The notes under the pieces: generated by a model
What the model was told of the DNA's origin: nothing
Databases searched by the model: none
Seen by the model: the letters and a program-made list of their open reading frames with translations, nothing else
From: Melioribacteraceae bacterium
GTDB lineage: Bacteria > Bacteroidota > Ignavibacteria > Ignavibacteriales > Melioribacteraceae
NCBI GenBank assembly: GCA_021647785.1
Contig: JAKIUC010000046.1
Span: 1 to 36,298, forward strand
Direction: 5' to 3'
Length of the DNA stretch: 36,298 bases
Translations under genes and position numbers: made by a program
Part shown: piece after piece, positions 351 through 11,306 of the stretch
Position numbering within the stretch: the stretch's first letter is position 1
Layout of the letters: the number at the start of each line of letters is the position of its first letter

Positions 351-896
351 ATGAAACGAATAATTATTCTAACAACAGCGGTTTTATTAGTAATAAGTAG
401 TGCACTTAACGCCCAACCAGGAATGGGAAGTTCGTATGGAAATAGGCACAAACAAGTAGATGATTGTAGTACACATAATATTAAAGCCAAATTTGGAGCT
501 GGACAAATGAACCGCTTGGAGAAAATAAAGGTTTTGCTGAAACTATCGGCTGAGCAAGAAGCAAAAGTAAGCGATATAAAATTTGAACATGATAATATTG
601 TTTTAGATGTAAAAAATAAAATTGCAAAAAATCGTTTATTAGTTCGAAAAATGATGACAGATAATAAAGTTGACCAAAAGAAATTACTCTCCCTTTCAAG
701 TACAAATAGTGAACTGCACGGCAAGTTGGGTTCATCAAAAATTAAAATGTGGTTAGAGATTTACAATATTCTTGACGATACTCAAAAAGAACAATGGACA
801 AAAATGTTTCTAAAAATGGGACAAAAAGGGAAGCATAATAAAAACAACTTCAGAAAAGGTGAATACGGAGAATTTCCTAAAGGGAGAATGAGATAA
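351..896 (+). CDS. Spy/CpxP-like periplasmic protein
   Basis: A 181-residue protein with a clear signal peptide (basic MKR, hydrophobic IIILTTAVLLVISSALNA, cleavage near AQ). The mature part is helical and charged, with two LTxxQ-like motifs: LKLSAEQEAKV near residue 65 and ILDDTQKEQW near residue 142. These are the signature of the Spy/CpxP/CnrX superfamily of periplasmic chaperones and metal-stress sensors. The tail is rich in Lys, Gly and Arg. The start is well supported by AAAGGAG seven bases upstream. It stands alone on the plus strand, divergent from an ECF sigma factor (1-97). By analogy with CnrX/CnrH-type arrangements it could be a sensor or a target of that sigma factor; this is inference. 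The exact function is unknown. Confidence 0.7.
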   Translation: MKRIIILTTAVLLVISSALNAQPGMGSSYGNRHKQVDDCSTHNIKAKFGAGQMNRLEKIKVLLKLSAEQEAKVSDIKFEHDNIVLDVKNKIAKNRLLVRKMMTDNKVDQKKLLSLSSTNSELHGKLGSSKIKMWLEIYNILDDTQKEQWTKMFLKMGQKGKHNKNNFRKGEYGEFPKGRMR

Positions 897-937
897 TATA
901 AAAACGAGAATTGCAATTACTATTTAACCATTGCTCA

Positions 938-1004
938 ATTGTTGCATTGCTCAATTGTTTAATTATTAACTTACATGTTTTTAACAATTGAGCAATGTAA
1001 CAAT
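938..1004. terminator. Long hairpin between convergent genes
   Basis: The arms at 938-959 and 983-1004 are 22 bases each and complementary at 21 positions (the exception can form a G-U pair); the loop is 23 bases. It lies between the ends of two converging genes (stops at 896 and 1027), so it can act as a terminator for either strand. It lacks a classic GC-rich stem and T-run. The arm sequence TTGCTCAATTG also occurs just upstream as an extra direct copy (931-941), so it may also be a degenerate repeat element. Confidence 0.5.
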
Positions 1005-1026
1005 AAAACAATTCTCTAAATTACTT

Positions 1027-1740
1027 TTACAAATCCCCTTTTATGGGTCTTAAAATTATCTCTTCTGGTACTAAATTATAATCAATAGAATAAAGCTGAT
1101 AGATAAACTTTGCTACATCTTCCGGCGACATCATTTGGCTTGCATATTCGTTTAACATTTCTGAAGACCAGATGGGAGTACGTGTAGCACCTGGTAAAAC
1201 ATTAATTACCTTAATATTATACTGTCGCACCTCTTCTCGCAAAACATTGGAATATGCTAACAACCCAGCCTTAGAGGCAGAATATACACTGCTATTTTGA
1301 AATGTTTTTTTTGCAGCTACCGAAAGAACATTGATAATAATTCCACCACCACGTTTTTTAAAATGGGGGAGCAGACTTGTGATTGTTCCAATTGCTCCAA
1401 TTAAATTTGTTTGAATAATTTCACTAACATCTTTATGTGAATGATTTTCAGCAGTAGTAAAAGTTGTAACTCCTGCATTATTGATTAAACAATCAACATC
1501 AAATTCTCTAAGTATTTTCTTAGAAACTTTGGAAATCTCATTTGTGTTAGAAACATCCAAAGGGAATGTTTCAATATTATTCGAAACCTTAATCGCTTCT
1601 TCTTTCATCTTTATAAGTGCTTTTTCCCTTCTTGCAGAAGCAATGCAACAAATATTATTGCTGCTAAATTGGTAAGTAATCGATTTTCCAATTCCGGAAT
1701 TTGCTCCGGTTATCCAGACTGCTTTTTTCATTTCGCTCAT
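1027..1740 (-). CDS. Short-chain dehydrogenase, sepiapterin reductase-like
   Basis: A 237-residue classical SDR. Visible are the cofactor loop TGANSGIG (11-18), the Arg pair after the second strand (SARREK, about 35-40; suggests NADPH), NNAG (87-90), and the catalytic Ser140, Tyr153 and Lys157 in YSASK. From memory, the C-terminal half (SVAAKKTF, PGATRTPIW, MMSPEDVA, EEIILRPIKGD) closely resembles the sepiapterin reductase of Chlorobium tepidum, which makes tetrahydrobiopterin. The frame is open further upstream into folE, but the ATG at 1740 is chosen because it begins one base after the folE stop and opens a normal SDR N-terminus; Met4 at 1731 is an alternative. It is the last gene of the bcp-PTPS-folE operon, which fits the two-step reduction of 6-pyruvoyl-tetrahydropterin. 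A generic SDR cannot be excluded. Confidence 0.78.
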   Translation of the reverse strand: MSEMKKAVWITGANSGIGKSITYQFSSNNICCIASARREKALIKMKEEAIKVSNNIETFPLDVSNTNEISKVSKKILREFDVDCLINNAGVTTFTTAENHSHKDVSEIIQTNLIGAIGTITSLLPHFKKRGGGIIINVLSVAAKKTFQNSSVYSASKAGLLAYSNVLREEVRQYNIKVINVLPGATRTPIWSSEMLNEYASQMMSPEDVAKFIYQLYSIDYNLVPEEIILRPIKGDL

Positions 1741-1741
1741 A

Positions 1742-2305
1742 TTAAATTCTATTTCGTGATAATAAATTAAGAAATTCCATTCGTGTTTTTTCGGCACGGA
1801 AGGCACCATGCACGGCACTTGTTGTTGTTGTTGAGTTTTGCTTTTGAACTCCACGCATCATCATACACATGTGATACCCTTCTGCAACAACTGCAACACC
1901 TTTGGGTTGTAATTTTTCTTGCAGCACATCAGCAATTTCTCTTGTTAACCTTTCTTGCACTTGCAGCCTTCTTGCAAACATATCTACTAATCTAGGGATT
2001 TTACTTAAACCTACAATTTTACCATTCGGGATATAGGCAATATGTATTTTCCCAAAAAACGGAAGCATATGATGTTCACACATACTGTAAAAATCGATAT
2101 CCTTTACAATTACCATCTCGTCATATTTCTCTTCAAATATAGCGTCATTCAAAATGTTATCAACATCTTGATGATAACCTTTTGTTAAGTATTTATACGC
2201 CTTTGCAACTCTCTCCGGAGTTTTTAACAACCCTTCACGCTCAGGATCTTCTCCTATTTCAGTTAAAATAGTTTTAACTTTTTCTGATACTATTTCTAAG
2301 TTCAA
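1742..2305 (-). CDS. folE: GTP cyclohydrolase I
   Basis: Converts GTP to 7,8-dihydroneopterin triphosphate, the entry step to folate and biopterin. The protein has 187 residues, normal for a bacterial FolE. The zinc ligands are visible: Cys76 and His79 in [11 protein letters not shown], and Cys147 in [13 protein letters not shown]. The family motifs [13 protein letters not shown] and [21 protein letters not shown] are intact. It lies three bases downstream of the PTPS gene and one base upstream of the SDR start, so translation is probably coupled. Its partners suggest use for tetrahydrobiopterin, though the enzyme may also feed folate since no other folE is visible here. Confidence 0.95.
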
Positions 2306-2308
2306 AAC

Positions 2309-2716
2309 TTACTCTCCTTTATATTCAGCATAATTATTTTCAGTTTCATATAACTTAACTGAATATAATTTACCTTCACTTATTTCATTTTCTAATAATT
2401 TCCAAATTCCAATTGCAATATTTTCTACTGTTGGAATTATACCTTTCATGAAATCTATATCAAAATTAAAATGATGATGATCCACTTTTGATATTACCTT
2501 TTCACGAACAATTTTTTTCAATTTTTTCAAATCAATAACATAGCCAGTTTTAGGATTTATTTCACCAGCTACTATAACTTCCAAAATATAATTATGCCCA
2601 TGTCCATACTGGTAGTTGCATTTATCATAAACTGCATTGTTTTCTTCATCACTAAGTTCTGGATTTGTTAATCTATGAGAAGCACTAAAGACCTCTCTAC
2701 GAGTTACATAAACCAT
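2309..2716 (-). CDS. 6-pyruvoyl-tetrahydropterin synthase (PTPS)
   Basis: A 135-residue member of the PTPS/QueD family. Zinc-binding His14 (FSASHRL), His39 and His41 (GHGHNY) are present, with the catalytic set Cys33, Asp79 and His80 and the pterin-binding Glu124 in KLYETENN. The spacing CNYQYGHGH puts six residues before the first His of HGH, as in animal PTPS (CNNPNGHGH). QueD has the shorter CxxxHGH. The stretches LSDEEN, GEINPKTGYV, PTVENIA..IW and the terminal YKGE also follow the animal enzyme as I remember it. I therefore favour conversion of dihydroneopterin triphosphate to 6-pyruvoyl-tetrahydropterin over queuosine synthesis. No other queuosine gene is nearby. It sits between bcp (nine bases) and folE (three bases). 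Confidence 0.88.
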   Translation of the reverse strand: MVYVTRREVFSASHRLTNPELSDEENNAVYDKCNYQYGHGHNYILEVIVAGEINPKTGYVIDLKKLKKIVREKVISKVDHHHFNFDIDFMKGIIPTVENIAIGIWKLLENEISEGKLYSVKLYETENNYAEYKGE

Positions 2717-2725
2717 AGCTGTCCC

Positions 2726-3190
2726 TTACTTCTCTTTGAGATATTTTAAGATTTCATTTACATGTCCGTTAACTTTTACTTTCGGAAATATCTTTTCAAT
2801 TTTTCCTTTTTCATCAATTATAAAAGTTGAACGCTCCACACCCATATATTTTTTTCCGTACATACTCTTCTCTTTCCAGATACCATATTTAGGAATAATT
2901 TTAATATCTTCATCACTAAGCAAAGTAAATTTCAATTCATATTTATCTCGAAATTTAATATGCGATTTTTGCGAGTCTTTACTAATTCCTATAACCTTAG
3001 TTTTAATTTTATCGAATGCTTTCAGCGAATCGTTAAAATCACATGCTTCTGCTGTGCATCCCGAGGTGTTATCTTTTGGATAAAAAAAGAGTACTACTTT
3101 TTTTCCTAACAAATCTTTTAATGCAACTTTATTTCCGTCACTATCTGGCAAAGTAAATGCAGGAGCTTTTTTCCCTACTGCAATTTCCAT
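2726..3190 (-). CDS. bcp: Thioredoxin-dependent peroxiredoxin, BCP/PrxQ type
   Basis: A 154-residue atypical two-Cys peroxiredoxin that reduces hydrogen peroxide and organic peroxides with electrons from thioredoxin. The peroxidatic Cys45 and resolving Cys50 lie in the motif FFYPKDNTSGCTAEAC, the five-residue spacing of the BCP/PrxQ class; Pro is replaced by Ser before the Gly. The thioredoxin-fold start APAFTLPDSDG and the strand VERSTFIIDEKGKI are intact. It is the first gene of the minus-strand operon ending in the pterin enzymes. It is divergent from a Fur-family regulator, suggesting peroxide- or metal-linked control; this is inference. Confidence 0.93.
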   Translation of the reverse strand: MEIAVGKKAPAFTLPDSDGNKVALKDLLGKKVVLFFYPKDNTSGCTAEACDFNDSLKAFDKIKTKVIGISKDSQKSHIKFRDKYELKFTLLSDEDIKIIPKYGIWKEKSMYGKKYMGVERSTFIIDEKGKIEKIFPKVKVNGHVNEILKYLKEK

Positions 3191-3213
3191 AATATATTTC
3201 CTTTATCTTTTTT

Positions 3214-3240
3214 ATTATTTGTAATAACATTTCAAATAAT
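3214..3240. promoter_or_regulatory. Perfect 8-11-8 inverted repeat upstream of bcp
   Basis: ATTATTTG (3214-3221) and CAAATAAT (3233-3240) are exact inverted copies around an 11-base spacer, 24-50 bases upstream of the bcp start. It could be an operator or part of the bcp leader. In DNA this AT-rich a chance match is quite possible. Confidence 0.3.
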
Positions 3241-3329
3241 TTTTGAACTATATTTTAAACATCTAAATTTATTTGATATCGAAAAATAATGTTTTCTGAA
3301 TTAATAATTTGGATTCAAAAAAATATTAT

Positions 3330-3348
3330 ATTTGTACTAAGTATAAAT
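3330..3348. promoter_or_regulatory. Candidate Fur-family operator (19-bp palindrome)
   Basis: The sequence ATTTGTACTAAGTATAAAT is a 9-1-9 palindrome with eight of nine arm positions matching. It lies in the 212-bp divergent region between bcp and the Fur-family gene, 55 bases upstream of the regulator start and 140 bases from bcp. Length and symmetry fit Fur/PerR-type boxes, which are 15-19 bp with a one-base centre. The regulator next door probably binds here and controls itself and perhaps the bcp-pterin operon; that is inference. Confidence 0.5.
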
Positions 3349-3402
3349 AATAAAATTTCAAAATCATAATTTTCAATTTAATATGAAAGATATAAACAGA
3401 GT

Positions 3403-3837
3403 ATGAACAAAGAAAAAGCACATGATGAATTTAAGTTATTTCTAAAGGCAGGAAAGCACCGAATAACTCCGGAACGGTTTGAGGTTCTTAGTTATGCATT
3501 TGAAAGTGGGGATCACTTTACTGCTGATGACCTTTATCTTGAAATGAAGAATGGGAAATCAAATGTTTCGCGAGCAACAGTTTATAATTCTTTAGAACTA
3601 CTTGTAAAGTGTGAAATGTTAGCTAAAAGAAATTTTGGAGAAAATAAAACTTTTTATGAATCTTCATACAATAGAAAGAATCATGTTCACTTAATTTGTA
3701 AAGAATGTGGTGAAATAATTGAATCGAATAATATAAAAGTTGCAGAGTTAGTGAATAGCATTGCAAAGAAAAATAATTTTATAAACGAATCGTTTCAATT
3801 TAATATTTTGGGCAAATGCAAAAAACATTCTAAATAA
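3403..3837 (+). CDS. Fur-family transcriptional regulator (Fur or PerR type)
   Basis: A 144-residue metal-dependent repressor. The winged-helix part contains RITPERFEVLSYAF and the recognition helix SRATVYNSLELL (about 56-67). The dimerisation part has the metal-sensing HVHLICKECGEI with His94 and His96, plus His38 upstream. The structural zinc site has a normal first CxxC (Cys99/Cys102). The second pair is Cys139-x-x-His142 rather than CxxC. At the position that separates Fur from PerR (Glu versus Asp) I read Glu in FYESS, but the loop is not aligned with certainty. Divergence from the peroxiredoxin gene bcp favours peroxide sensing; sequence alone does not decide between iron, zinc and peroxide. 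A 19-bp palindrome at 3330-3348 is the likely own operator. Confidence 0.87.
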   Translation: MNKEKAHDEFKLFLKAGKHRITPERFEVLSYAFESGDHFTADDLYLEMKNGKSNVSRATVYNSLELLVKCEMLAKRNFGENKTFYESSYNRKNHVHLICKECGEIIESNNIKVAELVNSIAKKNNFINESFQFNILGKCKKHSK

Positions 3838-3942
3838 AAATAATCTCAAATTACCAGCGATTCGGGGTCAAAATTAAGATGTGCAAAAACAACAAGTTAT
3901 AGGATATACTAAAAATTATTTTCCGGCTAAAAGTGTTTATAA

Positions 3943-4050
3943 AATCCCGCAAGGCGGGATTAAATATATGTATTTTATATCATTAACCAACGACTTAAGT
4001 CGTTGGTTAATAAGGAGTTACACACATTTCAATCCCGCCACTGCGGGATT
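3943..4050. repeat. REP/BIME-like cluster of three palindromes
   Basis: Three hairpins lie within 108 bases: AATCCCGC/GCGGGATT at 3943-3961 (loop 3), a perfect 30-base palindrome at 3982-4011 with core CGACTTAAGTCG, and again AATCCCGC/GCGGGATT at 4031-4050 (loop 4). The two outer hairpins have identical arms, so the whole unit is symmetrical around the central palindrome and could fold as one cruciform. It lies between converging genes (stops at 3837 and 4258) and is the most GC-rich stretch of that region. This matches extragenic palindromic elements mobilised by REP-associated transposases; no such transposase is in the window. Confidence 0.7.
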
Positions 4051-4088
4051 TATTAGTTGAAATTAATTTGACACCGCATTGCTGCAAA

Positions 4089-4241
4089 TTACAGGGGTAT
4101 TGGTATAGTTGAGAATTTCCCTTTCACCGTTAATTCATTACCTTCTGTTGGAGTTAGGTCAAATAAGGTACCAGTCATATTAAAATTACCTTCAATTTTA
4201 GTTGAACTTGAAGTAGTAATTTTAAAAGTTCCGGAAGACAT
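4089..4241 (-). pseudogene. Remnant of a secreted beta-rich protein gene (C-terminal piece)
   Basis: The minus strand codes for 50 residues from an internal ATG to a stop at 4089: MSSGTFKITTSSS, then TKIEGNFNMTGTLFD and a short tail. The frame stays open to 4262, i.e. up to the stop of the type IX substrate at 4258. The alternating Thr/Ser-rich strands (GTF.IT...IEG.F..TG) resemble the C-terminal strands of small lipoproteins such as the DUF6252-like group, as I remember them. No start signal, signal peptide or ribosome binding site is seen, so I call it a 5'-truncated remnant rather than a gene. With the REP-like cluster it accounts for the 420-base gap between 3838 and 4257; the rest of that gap (3838-3942, 4051-4088) shows nothing I can interpret. 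Confidence 0.4.
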
Positions 4242-4257
4242 TATATATAAGGTTGAA

Positions 4258-7236
4258 TCATTTTAACAGTATCATTTTTTTGCTCTCTACAAAACTGCCT
4301 GCGTGCAATCGATAAAAATAGACACCGCTTGTTAGGTTGCTTGCATCAAAACTCACTTCATAATTTCCAGCTTTTTGCTGTTTGTTTACAAGCGTTGCTA
4401 CTTCTCTGCCGAGTATGTCGTAAACTTTAAGAGTTACTAACCCACCCCCAACCCCTCCCAAGAGGGGAGTTTGAACCGATGGTATTGTATATTTAATTGT
4501 TGTACTTGGGTTAAATGGGTTAGGGTAATTTTGCGACAAGCTATATTCTGTTGGTAATTGTGAGCCTTTATTCCCATTAACTCCAACGGGAACGTAACTG
4601 AAATTCGTATTATAAAAACCTATTACATCATTTGTAATTCTGCGCGCTTCGGTTATTGAATTTAATGCATCTGTTCCACGTCCAACAATGTAGGCTACTA
4701 TTATTTCTATTGGTTTTCCTTTTACTAAATCGAATGGTCCTGTTGAACCAAACTGTCTTTGATCATCTGGTGAGCTATTTATCCATCCATTTTGTGTAAC
4801 TGGATTACCTGAGTACATTAATGATGGATTTATAGAACTGCAATCTTCGTTAAATACTTTACCAAATTCCCAATTACATGGGTCAACTAAATCTCCACCC
4901 TTATTAAACCCAAGCATATAGTCTCGCAATTGAGATTCATTATCTAGAGCATTATGTGGTAACCATATATTAGAGGAGATAACATTATTTTTTGCACCAG
5001 GGTATTCCTCTACCCCTAATAATTCTCCTTTCCTATTTCTTGCAGAATCAAGTGGCGTATCAATTCCCTCATCATAAACTCCATTACCATCTGTATCAAT
5101 AAAAGTTTCACCTTCTATATAAACTGGTGGAGCTTGTACAAATGAAACAAAGATTGCTGGAGGATTAATTCCAAAATCTTCATCTTCACCATCATTGTAT
5201 GTATAGGAAGAGTTAAGTGTTGAATCTATACCAATCAAATCATCAATATACTCACCATTATCCAGATCAGCCCATGCTCCAAAATAAACCGAATCAAGTT
5301 TATCAGCAACAGTTCCCATGTTTTCAATTTTATATCTAAAAAATATCACATTAGCAAGTTCTGGTGAAGTAGGTACATTATACGAAAAAGCAGTTTGTTT
5401 AATTTCAATTCCTTGTGGTTCAACATTACTAAACGTTCGGAATTGGGATGAAACACCATCATTATAAACTGTGAAGGCAGTAACATCACCTATCATATCT
5501 GGTTTATCTTCATTTGTATCCCAAGTACCATTGCCATTTAAATCAACTGGATTATAAATACCATCACCATCGCCATCATAAAAATCACCACCTTGTTCCA
5601 CTGCATTCTTCCAATCAGTCCATGAGTAATGAAAATCTGGTAGTAATCTTCTTACAACGTAAAATTCAGTATAAGATTCTGGGTTAGCAACTGTTCCAGC
5701 CTCATAATCCTCAATGCGAGAAGCTGTCATCATTCCATTTGCCCAGAGGTTTCCATTTGTATATCCACTAAGAGCAAACCCTGCTGAAAAGATAACTCCT
5801 ATATCGTCAAACCTACCTCCGGTTTTTCGGTTACCAATCTTAAAATCAGCTATTACTCCTCTTGAATTTATCGGTAATCTTAAATTATTATTATCAAAAT
5901 AAAACCCATCCCCACCATCCCCACCAAATGGAGAACTAACACTTTTACTTGGAGTCAATACTCTATTACCATATATATCTGTTGCAGATATTTGATATTG
6001 AAACAGAAAATTATAAGGTATATTAAGCAAATCATTACCAAAAATAAAATCTCCCGCTGCATCATCATTGTTCAAACCATCATCAAATAGTTGGAGGGAA
6101 TCTAAAACATTTGATAATGTATAATAGAACATTACAGAATTAAGAGTATTTTGTGAATATACTTTAGAATTTATATTTACATTAGCCTTTGGATTATTAT
6201 TTAGAAAGTGGAACTCAGTGTTATATACTGCAGGGATTGCTGATTCATCATTACTTTCATCGGCAATACCATACCATAATGTATATGCCCCATCCCTATT
6301 TGAAATAAAAGTAATATACTGTTTATCATTAACTCTGCTTATATTTTGCCCTCCGTCAAAATCGACATACTCTGTAAATTTATTTGGAGACCCCCAACTA
6401 TAAGCCCCATCTTCCAGTTTTGAATAATAAATATTCGATTGAGTATATTCTTCAAAAGGGGTTAACTCTGGTTGAACAAATGTCAACCAAAGAGTATTGT
6501 TGGAACCCTTTGTAACTCTTGGTCTCTCTTTATTTAATCCATTATCTAAAATAATTTTTGGGTTACTCCATGTTTTACCACTATCAATACTGGTCAATTC
6601 ATAAATATTGGATGTATCAGCATTACTTTTTCGATAAATTAAAACCAATGAATTATTCCAATGCGAATTGACTGATGAAAAATGAGGGGGACCATCTTCA
6701 ACAGTTATCATTGTATTCTTCTCACTCCAAGTAACTCCATCATCACTTTGGATATTGTAAATCTTATTTTGTCTGTTATAAACAAACCAAATTTTGTCAT
6801 CATTAGTTTGAGACAAACTAGATTCCATAATTTTTCGTGGACGTATTATTCCAATATCTGTTACAAGTTTTGCTGGTTCTGACCAAGTTGAACCATTATC
6901 ATCCGAATAGATTAAATAATGAAATTTCTGTTTGTACGTAACAAGTATTCTTCCACTATTTATTTTTAGTACATTTAGGTCGGAAAGTGAATCCCTTAAA
7001 ATTGTATTATCAACAAGTATTTTGGATGTACCCCAAGTTAAACCATCATCTAAACTTTTTGACATGTGCAAGTCTGTTGAATCAATCCAAAATGTTATCA
7101 ACTCATTTCCACTACCCTCAATAATAAATGATTCTGGAATTGTATTACTTATCGGTTCGAGTAATGGAATTTTTTCCATTTGTGCTGATAAACTAATTGT
7201 TAGTACTAATAGTAATTGTAATGTTAAGTTCTTCAT
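4258..7236 (-). CDS. Secreted Asp-box (BNR repeat) protein with type IX sorting domain
   Basis: A 992-residue secreted protein. It has a signal peptide (MKNLTLQLLLVLTISLSAQ) and four Asp-box/BNR motifs of a sialidase-type propeller: SLDDGLTW (61-68), SDDNGSTW (111-118), SDDGVTW (164-170), IDSGKTW (217-223). The central region has Asp/Asn/Gly-rich calcium-binding-like loops (GDGDGIYNPVDLNGNGTWD, DTDGNGVYDEG). The C-terminal sorting domain of about 85 residues starts at YSLSQNYPNPFNPSTTIKY. The last domain directs export by the type IX system and cleavage at the surface. No full set of sialidase catalytic residues is recognised, so a binding or structural role is as likely as an enzyme. The start has a good GGGAGAGG site. 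Near its end it carries a 40-bp palindromic element in frame and shares 173 identical bases with the subtilase gene upstream. Confidence 0.85.
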   Translation of the reverse strand: MKNLTLQLLLVLTISLSAQMEKIPLLEPISNTIPESFIIEGSGNELITFWIDSTDLHMSKSLDDGLTWGTSKILVDNTILRDSLSDLNVLKINSGRILVTYKQKFHYLIYSDDNGSTWSEPAKLVTDIGIIRPRKIMESSLSQTNDDKIWFVYNRQNKIYNIQSDDGVTWSEKNTMITVEDGPPHFSSVNSHWNNSLVLIYRKSNADTSNIYELTSIDSGKTWSNPKIILDNGLNKERPRVTKGSNNTLWLTFVQPELTPFEEYTQSNIYYSKLEDGAYSWGSPNKFTEYVDFDGGQNISRVNDKQYITFISNRDGAYTLWYGIADESNDESAIPAVYNTEFHFLNNNPKANVNINSKVYSQNTLNSVMFYYTLSNVLDSLQLFDDGLNNDDAAGDFIFGNDLLNIPYNFLFQYQISATDIYGNRVLTPSKSVSSPFGGDGGDGFYFDNNNLRLPINSRGVIADFKIGNRKTGGRFDDIGVIFSAGFALSGYTNGNLWANGMMTASRIEDYEAGTVANPESYTEFYVVRRLLPDFHYSWTDWKNAVEQGGDFYDGDGDGIYNPVDLNGNGTWDTNEDKPDMIGDVTAFTVYNDGVSSQFRTFSNVEPQGIEIKQTAFSYNVPTSPELANVIFFRYKIENMGTVADKLDSVYFGAWADLDNGEYIDDLIGIDSTLNSSYTYNDGEDEDFGINPPAIFVSFVQAPPVYIEGETFIDTDGNGVYDEGIDTPLDSARNRKGELLGVEEYPGAKNNVISSNIWLPHNALDNESQLRDYMLGFNKGGDLVDPCNWEFGKVFNEDCSSINPSLMYSGNPVTQNGWINSSPDDQRQFGSTGPFDLVKGKPIEIIVAYIVGRGTDALNSITEARRITNDVIGFYNTNFSYVPVGVNGNKGSQLPTEYSLSQNYPNPFNPSTTIKYTIPSVQTPLLGGVGGGLVTLKVYDILGREVATLVNKQQKAGNYEVSFDASNLTSGVYFYRLHAGSFVESKKMILLK
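4304..4476 (-). repeat. 173-bp identical repeat, copy 1 (sorting-domain 3' end)
   Basis: By eye these 173 bases are identical to 7478-7650. They code for the end of the type IX sorting domain, from the palindromic element through the VTLKVYDILGREVATLVN block to SGVYFYRL. The flanks on both sides diverge quickly; about 40 further bases upstream in the gene are similar but not identical. Perfect identity between otherwise unlike genes suggests recent gene conversion or cassette duplication. Confidence 0.85.
4437..4476 (-). repeat. In-frame palindromic element inside the sorting domain, copy 1
   Basis: A 40-base G/C-rich element in AT-rich DNA. Its core CCCCTC-CCAA-GAGGGG (4452-4467) is a hairpin. 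It is read in frame as VQTPLLGGVGGGL between IPS and VTLKVYD. Sorting domains of this type normally pass from the 'TTIKY.IP' strand to the 'V.LKVYD' strand with only a few residues, so about 13 residues look inserted. The second copy is at 7611-7650. Confidence 0.65.
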
Positions 7237-7391: not shown

Positions 7392-7423
7392 AAAATAAAT
7401 AAACACTCCGTGTTCTTTATTTT
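7392..7423 (-). terminator. Hairpin overlapping the stop codon of the subtilase gene
   Basis: On the minus strand the stem AAAATAAAgAACAC pairs with GTGTTtATTTATTTT around a GGA loop. The TAA stop of the subtilase gene lies inside the 5' arm. The AT-rich stem ends in T-rich sequence, compatible with a weak intrinsic terminator that would separate this gene from the downstream Asp-box protein. Confidence 0.5.
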
Positions 7424-10400
7424 AGCAACAGCATTTTCTTACTTTCATTAAAGCCTTGCCCAGTGCTGTTTGTAGCTTGCAATCGATAAAAATAGACACC
7501 GCTTGTTAGGTTGCTTGCATCAAAACTCACTTCATAATTTCCAGCTTTTTGCTGTTTGTTTACAAGCGTTGCTACTTCTCTGCCGAGTATGTCGTAAACT
7601 TTAAGAGTTACTAACCCACCCCCAACCCCTCCCAAGAGGGGAGTTTGAACAGATGGTATTTGATATTTTATTGTTGTACTTGGGTTAAATGGGTTTGGAT
7701 AGTTTGCTTCCAATTTGAAGGAATATTGTTCAGTACTACCTTCAATTTCGGAATCTTCAACATCTGTTATAACCGGCATTTTCCCAACAGTAAATGCAGG
7801 TGCTATTTTCCAATTCGTTTTATTACCAGCCATATCAATAAATTGCAATTGTAAATCGATTGATGCTGAGTCGAGATTAGCATACGAAGTTAAATCGGCT
7901 TTGTATAAGAAACCAATTGTACTATCCTCCGATATTGTAAAAACTTCAACTGGCTTCCATTTTTCTAATCCATTTATTCTTACAGATAGTTCGGTTCTTG
8001 AAGAATTTATGGAATTATAAATCCTCGAGTAAGAATAATCTAAAAGGTTGTACTCAATATCAGCCGAGGAGAAATAGATTAAAATTGAATCTCCTATAGA
8101 GAAATGGTCTTTAATTTCTCTTGTTTGATTTAGAAATTTCAGGGATGTAATTTTAGGTGGTGTAGAGTCTTCAGCAGAAAGATCAAAATCAGAGACTAAT
8201 TTTAATTCTCCTTCTATACCATTCAAACTATAATTGGATGTTGTAAATTCAACTCGGTAATATTCCTCAGGCAGCATTTCCTTTTTTAGGATAGTATTAG
8301 AATCTGATTGCACTAAATTGTTATTTTTATCAAATACCTTTAATATTGAATTATTCTCCATATTATAAAAGAATTCTTGGTTTGAACCATAGAAAGCAAA
8401 CGATGTGATAAAATTGTAGTCTTCCCAATAATTATTCAGAAATAATGCATCACTAAAAAGAGGATTTCTCCCAAAAACAATTGGAGAGTCTTGATTAGTA
8501 AGTAAAACATCTGCTGATGGTTTAAAGCTACTGAATGGTTGTAGTTTTCCATTCCATTCTAATATCAATGGTGTAGAATATCCTTCAAAACCTTGGATAC
8601 TAAATGTTCCGGCAAAAAAACTTACAGATGGTAGATAAGTGTCATTTTTAAATGAAGATAATAATATTTCTCCTCGCCAACTACTGGAGTCCATTTCTCT
8701 AACATAAATTTGGAATCCTCCCGTTCTGAATAAATTACGACCTATAACACCATCATTAAAAATTGATAGTTCGGCATTATCAACTCTACTTCGAACTTCT
8801 ATCTCTCTCCTTATAAATGTACTCGGATCATTTTGTAATAATAGATTATCTGATATACCCTCAAGTACTGTATGATGTACTATTGTAATTTTTTCTGCGG
8901 CTACTTCATCAACTGAAGATTCTGAAAAGGATAGTTTGTATCTATCAGATATATCTGAAAAATATAATGTGTCATATGGGAAAGAGTAACTTGCACCTAT
9001 TAATGGAGTTGTGAGTGGCGGGAATAATATGAATTGTTTACTAGGGTATTCTAAAGGGTTACCCAATTCATCAACTCCGTCATAAATCACTTTGATTTCT
9101 AAATTATTAAAATCCAAATCGACTCTTTTGTAATCAGTAATTTCAATTTCTTCCTTGGTTAGAATTTTTATTTTTTCATCACCATGAATAGAAGCAAAAA
9201 TATCATAAGTATTTGGAGGTAAAATTATTTCAGCCTCATACATATCGTTAGAGAAATAAATAGGTGAAACATAGTTAGACCCAATAATACCTCCGAAAGG
9301 TCGAGGTGAGTCGGAAACTATAATAAGTTTAGCTGCCTTCACAAATGCAAATGGTATATGCAAATTTTCATTCCCTGAAATCAATATATTCCCATCATAG
9401 CTAAGAGAAGCCCAGTCAGGAAAGGGTACTATTGAATTATCAACTGAAAGTTCTACTATTATCTCCCCTTCTGCACCTGCATCAATACTAATTGATGTTG
9501 GATAGAATTCAATATTTATTCCGGAATGGTCAACATCTTTCTGAAATGAGTAAGTCTGCATAATATCAGAATGATTACTAATTGTTAGTGTATCTGCAAC
9601 AACCCAATTTGTCTCTTCCAGATTATCAATACCAAAACTTAATTGAGATGGAAAAATTGTTGTTTGAACTTTTGCAGCTTTAAGTGCATCAATTCTTCCA
9701 GCACCTTGAGCCATAGCCTCCTCGCCAATATCTATTGAGGTAGTCATTAATGCTGATTTTAATTCTTCTGGTCCCCAATTGGGATGGATCGATTTTAGCA
9801 AAGCACACACACCCGCCACTATCGGAGCTGCCATTGATGTACCGCTATACTCAACAGTTCCACCACCTAATTTTAGTGAGTTAATATCAACACCTGGTGC
9901 CACAACATCTGGCTTAATTGAATAAGTTTTGTTAACAGGTCCTTTAGAACTAAAAATTGCCAGTTTATCCTCACTATCCGATGCACCTACTGTAATTGCA
10001 GATTTAGCAGTTCCCGGACTACCAATGCTTTTATAAGAATAACCATTGCCCGCAGCAATAGAAGATGTTATTCCTAAAAAAGAAGCATTATCAACAGCAA
10101 CAGATGTTGGGTCATCTGGATTTCCGTAGTATGAACCAAGACTTAAATTAATTATATCTACCATATCATCTGTATTACCATCCCCATTTGGGTCGGCACA
10201 ATATTCTATTGCTGCAATAATATCATCTCCTCTACCACGTCCGGATCTATCCAAAACTTTTAGGGCAATTAGTGATGACTTTGGTGCAATACCTATAATT
10301 GAATCCCCATCAGCAGAAACAATTCCAGCCACATGTGTACCATGTCCATTATCATCAATTGGATCATCATCGTTATTAATAAAATCGTATCCTCCAATTA

Positions 10401-11094
10401 CTTTAAATCCTGGTCCGAAACCACCACCTAATGCTGGATGCAAATAGTCTATACCAGTATCAATTATTGCTATTACAATGCTATCTCCTTTAACACCAAA
10501 TTGACTCCAAACTGAATCTACTTTAATTAGTGATATACTCTCCGAGAGATTAGCTTTCATCTCTCTATTGTAATGTAATTTCTTTACATATTTTAATTCG
10601 TTCAGTCTATTTAAGTTCCCTCTTCTTACTGTGGCACTTACACCAAAAAATAGTTTATAAAATTCTTTATTTATTTTTATCTCATTTGGCTGTAAGTCAT
10701 TCAATTTATTTAATTGGCTTTGCTGCATATCTTCTAATACATTCCTTATTTGGGAGAACCTATTAAAGTAGATACTTTCATCAGCATATCCATCCATTTT
10801 TTTTCTAATTAGATAGGGAACCTCTTTGAATTCAATAATAATCTCCATTTTTTCATCAAGATCAATATTTTGAATTACAGGTTCTTCACCTTCAATGGTT
10901 GTTATAATGCTTGGAGTATTTGTGTTAGTTTTAAAATATCTGTCATAGATTTGACCTGCTGTAGAATTTGAAGTCTCTTGGTTTAATAATGGATTGCCCT
11001 TCTTGTTTCGCAGAAGTTCATTTAACTGGTTTATCTGAGAATAAAGATTTGAAGTTGTTAGTAGAACTAAGATAATTGATAAAATCCATTTCAT
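7417..11094 (-). CDS. Secreted subtilisin-like serine protease (S8) with type IX sorting domain
   Basis: A large extracellular protease of about 1225 residues. After a signal peptide (MKWILSIILVLLTTSNLYSQ) comes a propeptide-like region to about 185, then the S8 domain. Catalytic Asp212 (IAIIDTGIDYLHP), His251 (GHGTHVAGI), oxyanion Asn350 (AAGNG) and Ser420 (SGTSMAAPI) are all present, so it should be active. A long beta-rich region follows. The C-terminal sorting domain (ANYPNPFNPSTTIKY...SKKMLLLK) marks it for type IX export. An upstream ATG at 11106 opens the same frame, but the ATG at 11094 has GAGG six bases before it and gives a cleaner signal peptide. It lies upstream of the Asp-box protein on the same strand, 180 bases apart. 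The 3' end shares 173 bases with that gene. Confidence 0.93.
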   Translation of the reverse strand: MKWILSIILVLLTTSNLYSQINQLNELLRNKKGNPLLNQETSNSTAGQIYDRYFKTNTNTPSIITTIEGEEPVIQNIDLDEKMEIIIEFKEVPYLIRKKMDGYADESIYFNRFSQIRNVLEDMQQSQLNKLNDLQPNEIKINKEFYKLFFGVSATVRRGNLNRLNELKYVKKLHYNREMKANLSESISLIKVDSVWSQFGVKGDSIVIAIIDTGIDYLHPALGGGFGPGFKVIGGYDFINNDDDPIDDNGHGTHVAGIVSADGDSIIGIAPKSSLIALKVLDRSGRGRGDDIIAAIEYCADPNGDGNTDDMVDIINLSLGSYYGNPDDPTSVAVDNASFLGITSSIAAGNGYSYKSIGSPGTAKSAITVGASDSEDKLAIFSSKGPVNKTYSIKPDVVAPGVDINSLKLGGGTVEYSGTSMAAPIVAGVCALLKSIHPNWGPEELKSALMTTSIDIGEEAMAQGAGRIDALKAAKVQTTIFPSQLSFGIDNLEETNWVVADTLTISNHSDIMQTYSFQKDVDHSGINIEFYPTSISIDAGAEGEIIVELSVDNSIVPFPDWASLSYDGNILISGNENLHIPFAFVKAAKLIIVSDSPRPFGGIIGSNYVSPIYFSNDMYEAEIILPPNTYDIFASIHGDEKIKILTKEEIEITDYKRVDLDFNNLEIKVIYDGVDELGNPLEYPSKQFILFPPLTTPLIGASYSFPYDTLYFSDISDRYKLSFSESSVDEVAAEKITIVHHTVLEGISDNLLLQNDPSTFIRREIEVRSRVDNAELSIFNDGVIGRNLFRTGGFQIYVREMDSSSWRGEILLSSFKNDTYLPSVSFFAGTFSIQGFEGYSTPLILEWNGKLQPFSSFKPSADVLLTNQDSPIVFGRNPLFSDALFLNNYWEDYNFITSFAFYGSNQEFFYNMENNSILKVFDKNNNLVQSDSNTILKKEMLPEEYYRVEFTTSNYSLNGIEGELKLVSDFDLSAEDSTPPKITSLKFLNQTREIKDHFSIGDSILIYFSSADIEYNLLDYSYSRIYNSINSSRTELSVRINGLEKWKPVEVFTISEDSTIGFLYKADLTSYANLDSASIDLQLQFIDMAGNKTNWKIAPAFTVGKMPVITDVEDSEIEGSTEQYSFKLEANYPNPFNPSTTIKYQIPSVQTPLLGGVGGGLVTLKVYDILGREVATLVNKQQKAGNYEVSFDASNLTSGVYFYRLQATNSTGQGFNESKKMLLLK
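7478..7650 (-). repeat. 173-bp identical repeat, copy 2 (sorting-domain 3' end)
   Basis: Identical by eye to 4304-4476. It codes the same stretch of the type IX sorting domain in the subtilase gene. The two copies are in the same orientation about 3.2 kb apart, so recombination between them could delete or amplify the intervening sequence. Confidence 0.85.
7611..7650 (-). repeat. In-frame palindromic element inside the sorting domain, copy 2
   Basis: Same 40 bases as 4437-4476, with the CCCCTC/GAGGGG hairpin, translated in the same frame as VQTPLLGGVGGGL between IPS and VTLKVYD of the subtilase sorting domain. Its presence inside the 173-bp identical block means one insertion followed by copying explains both. 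Confidence 0.65.
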
Positions 11095-11306
11095 TTCGTG
11101 CCTCATTTTTTTGAATACGAAAGTTAGTTATATTCATCTTTTAGAATCATATATTAATATAATAATATTTAGAAGTATGTCAAAAGATAAATAGAAGAAT
11201 TATTGATTAGGTAAATATTTTTACCCTTTATAAAATATGGAGAAGGCTTAGGAAAAGGCTAAGTGTTAAGATTAGTTTATATATTGCATTATAAATGCTC
11301 GTTTCA

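Follow-up and report, generated by a model that had tools for sequence, protein, structure and literature searches.

A predicted tetrahydrobiopterin synthesis operon headed by a peroxiredoxin gene in a Melioribacteraceae bacterium

A gene context in which a 6-pyruvoyltetrahydropterin synthase of the biopterin type (PTPS-II), FolE and a sepiapterin reductase together account for tetrahydrobiopterin (BH4) synthesis is already known from PMC5041015, according to which, in 2016, BH4 synthesis was the predicted role of only about 50 COG0720 proteins; the legend of its Figure 3 counts Rhodothermus marinus among the organisms that have at least two PTPS set in different conserved gene neighbourhoods. 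PMC5683033 describes L-threo-BH4 as the product made by Chlorobium tepidum and deals with a pteridine glycosyltransferase. In the literature searched, the one paper mentioning both Ignavibacteria and biopterin (PMC12213060) does so in passages on a folate-biopterin transporter from an anammox organism, and no title on such an operon was seen in listings that combined bacterial BH4 with a hydroxylase, dodecin or a peroxiredoxin. Here we describe four genes, between positions 1027 and 3190 of the 36,298-nucleotide contig JAKIUC010000046.1 from a Melioribacteraceae bacterium (the whole stretch is termed the window; G000:C96 in our genome set), that very probably form a BH4 synthesis operon. The genome (G000) measures 4.25 Mb in 99 contigs and is 99.16% complete.

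The operon has the same three enzymes as the BH4 context of PMC5041015, and differs from it in that a peroxiredoxin gene heads the window operon, relatives often add dodecin and Fur/FeoB genes, and a second family of the order, f2, adds a hydroxylase gene. As far as literature listings show, the class-wide peroxiredoxin link, the hydroxylase-upstream form in f2 and, in the window's family, the form with dodecin and Fur genes but no hydroxylase are new. The phylum was represented by 148 genomes and the order by 116, to which the window's family (f1) contributed 54, f43 contributed 5 and f2 contributed 57 (family sizes counted by hand). Loci were compared in a set of the window plus 80 hand-picked stretches (L043-L122, including a QueD locus, L120, and a locus of a short-chain dehydrogenase/reductase (SDR), L119), and locus counts refer to that subset unless further loci are named.

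Operon layout and identity of the enzymes

The four genes lie head to tail on the minus strand. The first, bcp (3190-2726), encodes a PrxQ-type thioredoxin-dependent peroxiredoxin of 154 amino acids (PRK09437 equivalog, 168.3 bits against a cut-off of 140), followed by the PTPS gene (2716-2309, 135 amino acids; PF01242, 116.6 bits, cut-off 22.4), folE for GTP cyclohydrolase I (2305-1742, 187 amino acids from a TTG start; TIGR00063, 269.4 bits, cut-off 181.6) and a gene for a sepiapterin-reductase-like SDR (1740-1027; PF00106). The SDR has 237 amino acids from the ATG at 1740; a longer open reading frame of 275 amino acids, with its GTG start farther upstream, overlaps folE. The intergenic gaps are 9, 3 and 1 bases, and the gene order, coordinates and gaps given in an initial annotation of the window were reproduced from its sequence. 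The genes are presumably co-transcribed.

That annotation had proposed a full route from GTP to BH4, which gains support from family membership, conservation in relatives and hydroxylase linkage in f2. As judged from sequence, FolE would convert GTP to 7,8-dihydroneopterin triphosphate, PTPS would convert the latter to 6-pyruvoyl-tetrahydropterin, and the SDR, in the role of a Chlorobium-type sepiapterin reductase, would reduce both side-chain ketones with NADPH to yield BH4. The product is probably the L-threo isomer, since the closest characterised relative of the SDR comes from an organism that makes L-threo-BH4, C. tepidum.

A sequence search of the PDB with the window PTPS gave E-values of 4e-36 to 2e-28 for the animal chains 3i2b, 1b66 and 2g64, and of about 1e-8 for E. 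coli QueD; the best matches were to what we take to be human (E 3.8e-36) and rat (E 2.1e-35) PTPS. Identity to human PTPS was 47.7% over 132 columns, and all eight residues checked (H14, C33, H39, H41, D79, H80, E98 and E124) aligned with the human enzyme; we take these to be the zinc-binding His triad, the catalytic Cys, the Asp-His pair and the pterin-binding Glu. The protein carries CNYQYGHGH at residues 33-41 (2594-2620, minus strand), that is, the C-x5-HGH spacing, presumably the hallmark of PTPS-II within COG0720, and not the C-x3-HGH spacing of QueD. In a tree of 97 rows, which rests on few alignment columns, the window PTPS was placed among the PTPS of its own order, within a 77-row set split off by a branch with a Shimodaira-Hasegawa-like approximate likelihood ratio (SH-aLRT) support of 95; this set comprised 72 CxxxxxHGH proteins, three animal enzymes, one CxxxHGH protein and one other. 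The animal-type character claimed for this PTPS is thus borne out by motif, identity and position on the animal side of the tree, and the possibility of its falling in a QueD clade did not materialise, as sequence scores and tree set it apart from QueD. The description 'eukaryote-like' holds for the similarity to animal PTPS and not for any hint of transfer from animals, which was ruled out by the nesting of the window PTPS among bacterial relatives. Compared with the animal BH4 pathway (GCH1, PTS, SPR), then, the likeness lies in this enzyme and its active-site residues; the window SDR is of bacterial kind and the window genes are tightly clustered. The predicted PTPS structure (predicted local distance difference test score, pLDDT, 96.4) had human PTPS (3i2b) as its top Foldseek match at E 1.7e-17, with the best QueD at 1.6e-11.

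For the SDR, the top match in a PDB sequence search was 2bd0, the C. tepidum sepiapterin reductase (E 9e-31, 33.5% identity), which was also the best fold match of the predicted structure (pLDDT 93.9) with a template modelling (TM) score of 0.93, a root-mean-square deviation of 1.5 and an E-value of 3.1e-23, the runner-up scoring 5.3e-21. The two proteins have in common YxxxK, TPxW and a C-terminal EExxxRPxxGD, in agreement with the C-terminal resemblance noticed in the initial annotation. Eleven residues invariant in 17 chosen SDRs are also present in 2bd0 (S140, Y153, K157, W191, M204, E226, E227, R231, P232, G235 and D236); of these, W191 and D236 of the window SDR align with the Trp and C-terminal Asp of 2bd0, which we take to be substrate-pocket residues. 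In a careful SDR tree, from which seven generic SDRs and three partial rows were left out, a branch with support 94/83 separated the window SDR and 2bd0 from a second operon SDR; the position beside 2bd0 is only moderately supported. The likeness to the Chlorobium pathway lies in the SDR protein: at L119, the locus of the closest relative of 2bd0 in our set, no PTPS, folE or peroxiredoxin match was found within 8.7 kb.

A second SDR gene follows the first in several relatives (e.g. L048:5684-6397) and is absent from the window; its product ends in RPTNPK or similar, carries neither the TPxW nor the GD feature, and ranks other reductases above 2bd0 among its PDB matches. This second SDR, which lacks the C-terminal signature, bears on an alternative in which the operon makes another tetrahydropterin (6-lactoyl or half-reduced), the first SDR reducing one ketone or needing the second for the other. 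Sequence is a poor guide to SDR specificity, and some operon SDRs differ at the terminal Asp, which favours this alternative; however, the single SDR of the window has every feature compared with the Chlorobium enzyme and many loci hold a single SDR, and we regard a product other than one of the two biopterin isomers as unlikely.

Conservation in relatives and linkage to a hydroxylase

Every member of the window's family in the locus set, 14 in all (the window and L043-L055), carries the peroxiredoxin-PTPS-folE-SDR chain, as do the two f2 members of that set, which argues that the arrangement is more than chance and answers the question of its conservation raised by the initial annotation. Within the 14 family loci, the PTPS motif, the adjacent folE, the SDR after folE and the YxxxK of the SDR were kept throughout, and the C-terminal SDR signature (ending in Asp or Glu) in 13. 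Across the whole locus set, 74 of the 81 loci hold a CxxxxxHGH PTPS, 66 of these with an adjacent folE or folE2 and 28 with a nearby SDR bearing the signature (Asp or Glu). Biopterin synthesis had been described as rare in bacteria; for this phylum, and within a hand-picked set, these two counts indicate that the claim was overstated.

Among the matches listed, Biopterin_H, the aromatic amino acid hydroxylase family, was present in 33 of the 116 order genomes, all of them f2, and in 0/54 of the window's family. In 27 of these 33 genomes, the hydroxylase gene lay 983 to 2182 bases from the operon folE (distances were taken from each hydroxylase to a single folE in its genome). In 13/13 linked f2 loci fetched, genes for hydroxylase, peroxiredoxin(s), PTPS, FolE and SDR follow one another in that order on a single strand; L057 is a fourteenth, and the arrangement recurs on contigs L131 and L132. 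Pterin dehydratase, among the matches listed and counted by hand, was present in 33/33 hydroxylase genomes and 54/83 others. As the genomes are related, the linkage counts are not independent trials; nevertheless, the strongest argument for a hydroxylase cofactor as the operon's product is that hydroxylase and BH4 genes lie together. In f2, then, the hydroxylase gene commonly stands just upstream of the operon, and in the window's family, in which it was not found, the operon is kept with the peroxiredoxin, usually with dodecin and Fur-family genes adjoining. Outside the phylum, a Verrucomicrobia contig (L193:5920-8051) carries PTPS and sepiapterin-reductase-like SDR genes that converge on a gene for an aromatic amino acid hydroxylase.

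Several observations weigh against a BH4 operon or against parts of its evidence. Two CxxxHGH rows, L080 and L081, lie on the animal side of the PTPS tree, L081 being long-branched and outside the 77-row set. The query-normalised TM score of the PTPS model is higher for human PTPS (0.93) than for QueD (0.82), but the target-normalised scores are about equal (0.91 versus 0.92), so that the fold alone separates PTPS from QueD weakly. NCBIfam gave no above-cut-off match for the window PTPS, and none for the SDR among the best 25 of 214 rows. The terminal Asp of the SDR is not universal: the operon SDRs of L043, L046 (Glu), L078, L262 and L267, which lie outside the 17-row alignment, end otherwise, with the Trp kept in 5/5. 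Generic reductases also complicate the SDR placement, the second point on which the initial annotation might have failed: the sequence and fold rankings headed by 2bd0 and the 94/83 branch speak for the Chlorobium side, but strict monophyly of the signature-bearing SDRs was rejected (approximately unbiased test, p 0.0086), and a first SDR tree had placed the seven generic SDRs, on a very long branch, inside the window's clade. Three of the 54 family genomes gave no folE match, and hence no operon: G286 and G292 (about 90% and 94% complete, both of the window's genus) and G242 (99%); the other 51 have folE. Hydroxylase linkage was not seen in 6 of the 33 hydroxylase genomes, five having the genes on different contigs and one having no folE found; in G239, the hydroxylase appears to be genuinely unlinked over the sequence covered by L260 and L261. 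No known BH4 user tested was found in G000 among the matches listed. Finally, PMC5041015 cautions that, in Synechococcus, the PTPS homologue with the greater likeness to the rat enzyme was not the BH4 producer.

Other arrangements were also seen. In L064-L066, L068-L070, L072 and L075-L077 (families f5, f6 and f8), PTPS is followed by the gene of a divergent FolE protein (88-101 bits to that of the window) without an SDR, and an RNase HII gene lies near most of these loci. Tandem PTPS-family genes precede folE in 13 of 80 further loci (L165, L171, L176, L179, L185, L187, L188, L191, L192, L194, L196, L197 and L201), 12 of the 13 from Acidobacteria, with L157 as a fourteenth whose second copy is weak. 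The tandem copies fall apart in the PTPS tree in all six pairs included (L165, L176, L179, L185, L191 and L201).

Pterin genes elsewhere in the genome

The single FolE match in G000 is the operon's folE, and FolE2 was not found in this genome. Since no other GTP cyclohydrolase I turned up in G000, the operon folE must also feed folate and queuosine besides BH4. A second PTPS-family gene, at C95:90042, is a separate QueD with CFNLHGH, directly downstream of a QueE-like gene, the possibility of such a gene elsewhere in the genome having been raised by the initial annotation; the two products score slightly below the cut-offs of their models (QueD 86.2 against 89.25 bits, QueE 291.2 against 300). 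FolB is encoded at C37:65057 and in 110 of the 116 order genomes. Therefore, neither queuosine nor folate needs the window PTPS.

These genes help to decide between BH4 synthesis and two other assignments of the PTPS. In one of these, the operon would serve queuosine synthesis, its PTPS being a QueD (6-carboxy-tetrahydropterin synthase) and its SDR an unrelated reductase. PTPS and QueD belong to the same superfamily, QueD enzymes are promiscuous, and the predicted fold by itself barely tells the two apart; however, the separate QueD with its QueE-like neighbour, together with the motif, sequence scores and tree that place the window PTPS with animal PTPS, led us to reject this assignment, which we consider very unlikely. 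The QueD model points the same way, giving 62 bits for the window PTPS, below the score of the C95 gene and the cut-off. The other assignment is a PTPS-III-like folate bypass, in which the PTPS would make 6-hydroxymethyl-dihydropterin in the stead of FolB. It could appeal to the adjacent folE, through which the operon also feeds folate. The presence of FolB in G000 and most of the order, the motif, sequence scores and tree, and the retention of the nucleophile Cys33, which in PTPS-III is presumably replaced by Glu, led to its rejection as extremely unlikely; moreover, the linked sepiapterin-reductase-like SDR and hydroxylase would have no part in a folate bypass.

With BH4 retained as the predicted product, its use was sought among known BH4-related proteins. 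Aromatic amino acid hydroxylase was listed in 51 of the 148 phylum genomes and not in G000, which extends to the whole genome the earlier remark that the window holds no pterin-dependent hydroxylase. Among the matches listed, aromatic amino acid hydroxylase, pterin dehydratase, FA_hydroxylase and nitric oxide synthase each gave 0 matches in G000 and the other four genomes of its genus; a BH4 user that these searches missed may exist there. In the same listed matches, nitric oxide synthase was found in 0/116 order genomes, and the FA_hydroxylase superfamily, which we take to include alkylglycerol monooxygenase, in 80/116 order genomes and 0/5 of the window's genus.

A further possibility, compatible with the enzyme products proposed above, is that the operon of the window's family is a relic of a hydroxylase pathway, kept for its sole folE, with BH4 functionless there. 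The lack of a listed hydroxylase in all 54 family genomes, the lack of a listed BH4 user in G000 and the position of the only folE of G000 in the operon favour such a relic. It is nonetheless improbable in our assessment, given the intact PTPS motif, SDR YxxxK and, with one exception, C-terminal signature across the 14 family loci, and the retention of pterin dehydratase in 38 of the 54 family genomes (counted by hand, among the matches listed), though in 0/5 of the window's genus.

Peroxiredoxin, Fur and dodecin genes around the operon

A peroxiredoxin gene was found upstream within 1.3 kb in 25 of the 74 CxxxxxHGH PTPS loci and directly downstream in 3. The upstream form occurs in families f1, f2, f3, f4, f9, f34 and f39, all of one class, and also in three f43 loci read. 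In the window's family, peroxiredoxin was upstream of PTPS in 14/14 loci, with a divergent Fur-family gene in 12/14 and dodecin in 11/14; no dodecin gene lies beside the operon in the window's own locus, and in several relatives FeoB is encoded on the far side of the Fur gene. In family f21, a CxxxxxHGH PTPS gene without folE or SDR is followed directly by Bcp in 3/5 loci (L086:3986-4851, L087 and L093), a second peroxiredoxin-PTPS link that is arranged differently.

In the window, the Fur-family regulator gene (3403-3837, plus strand; PF01475) is divergent from the operon across an intergenic region (3191-3402, no strand assigned) presumed to hold the promoters of both. It may encode either Fur or PerR, both NCBIfam models scoring well below cut-off. 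A promoter scan of 600-4300 found 19 candidates against a shuffle mean of 19.4, and thus no excess, and Rfam at gathering thresholds gave no match anywhere in the window. Among 16 intergenic stretches inspected by eye, 10 (L044, L045, L047, L052, L053, L055, L123, L124, L128 and L137, of which L055 and L123 are the same stretch) show a near-identical TTTAGATTTAGTCTAYATAA-like element immediately ahead of the start of the Fur gene; the element was not seen in that form in the window.

On the other side of the operon, a conserved convergent gene (351-896, plus strand) encodes a Spy-like protein that scores 21.1 bits to PF13801 (cut-off 29.2) and below cut-off to the Spy model. Its sequence cluster spans 15 loci including the window, and one member, L044:5759-6316, reaches 62.9 bits to PF13801; its membership in the operon system is doubtful. 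Farther away, two large secreted-looking proteins (4258-7236 and 7417-11106) have a near-identical C-terminal segment of the sorting-domain type.

The linkage of these genes suggests that BH4 in the window's genus may have a redox or protective (antioxidant) use. More specifically, BH4 there could be part of a peroxide/iron response and not a hydroxylase cofactor, either as an antioxidant or as the cofactor of a BH4 enzyme undescribed in bacteria; this tentative reading, which we hold to be possible though not the probable case, draws on the operon with its PrxQ-type peroxiredoxin, the Fur-family neighbour, and dodecin and FeoB in relatives. The order thus contains a BH4-type operon that is commonly accompanied by a hydroxylase in f2 and that stands without the tested users in the window's genus, a natural comparison for a hydroxylase-free role of BH4, and the link to peroxiredoxin opens an antioxidant role to direct test.

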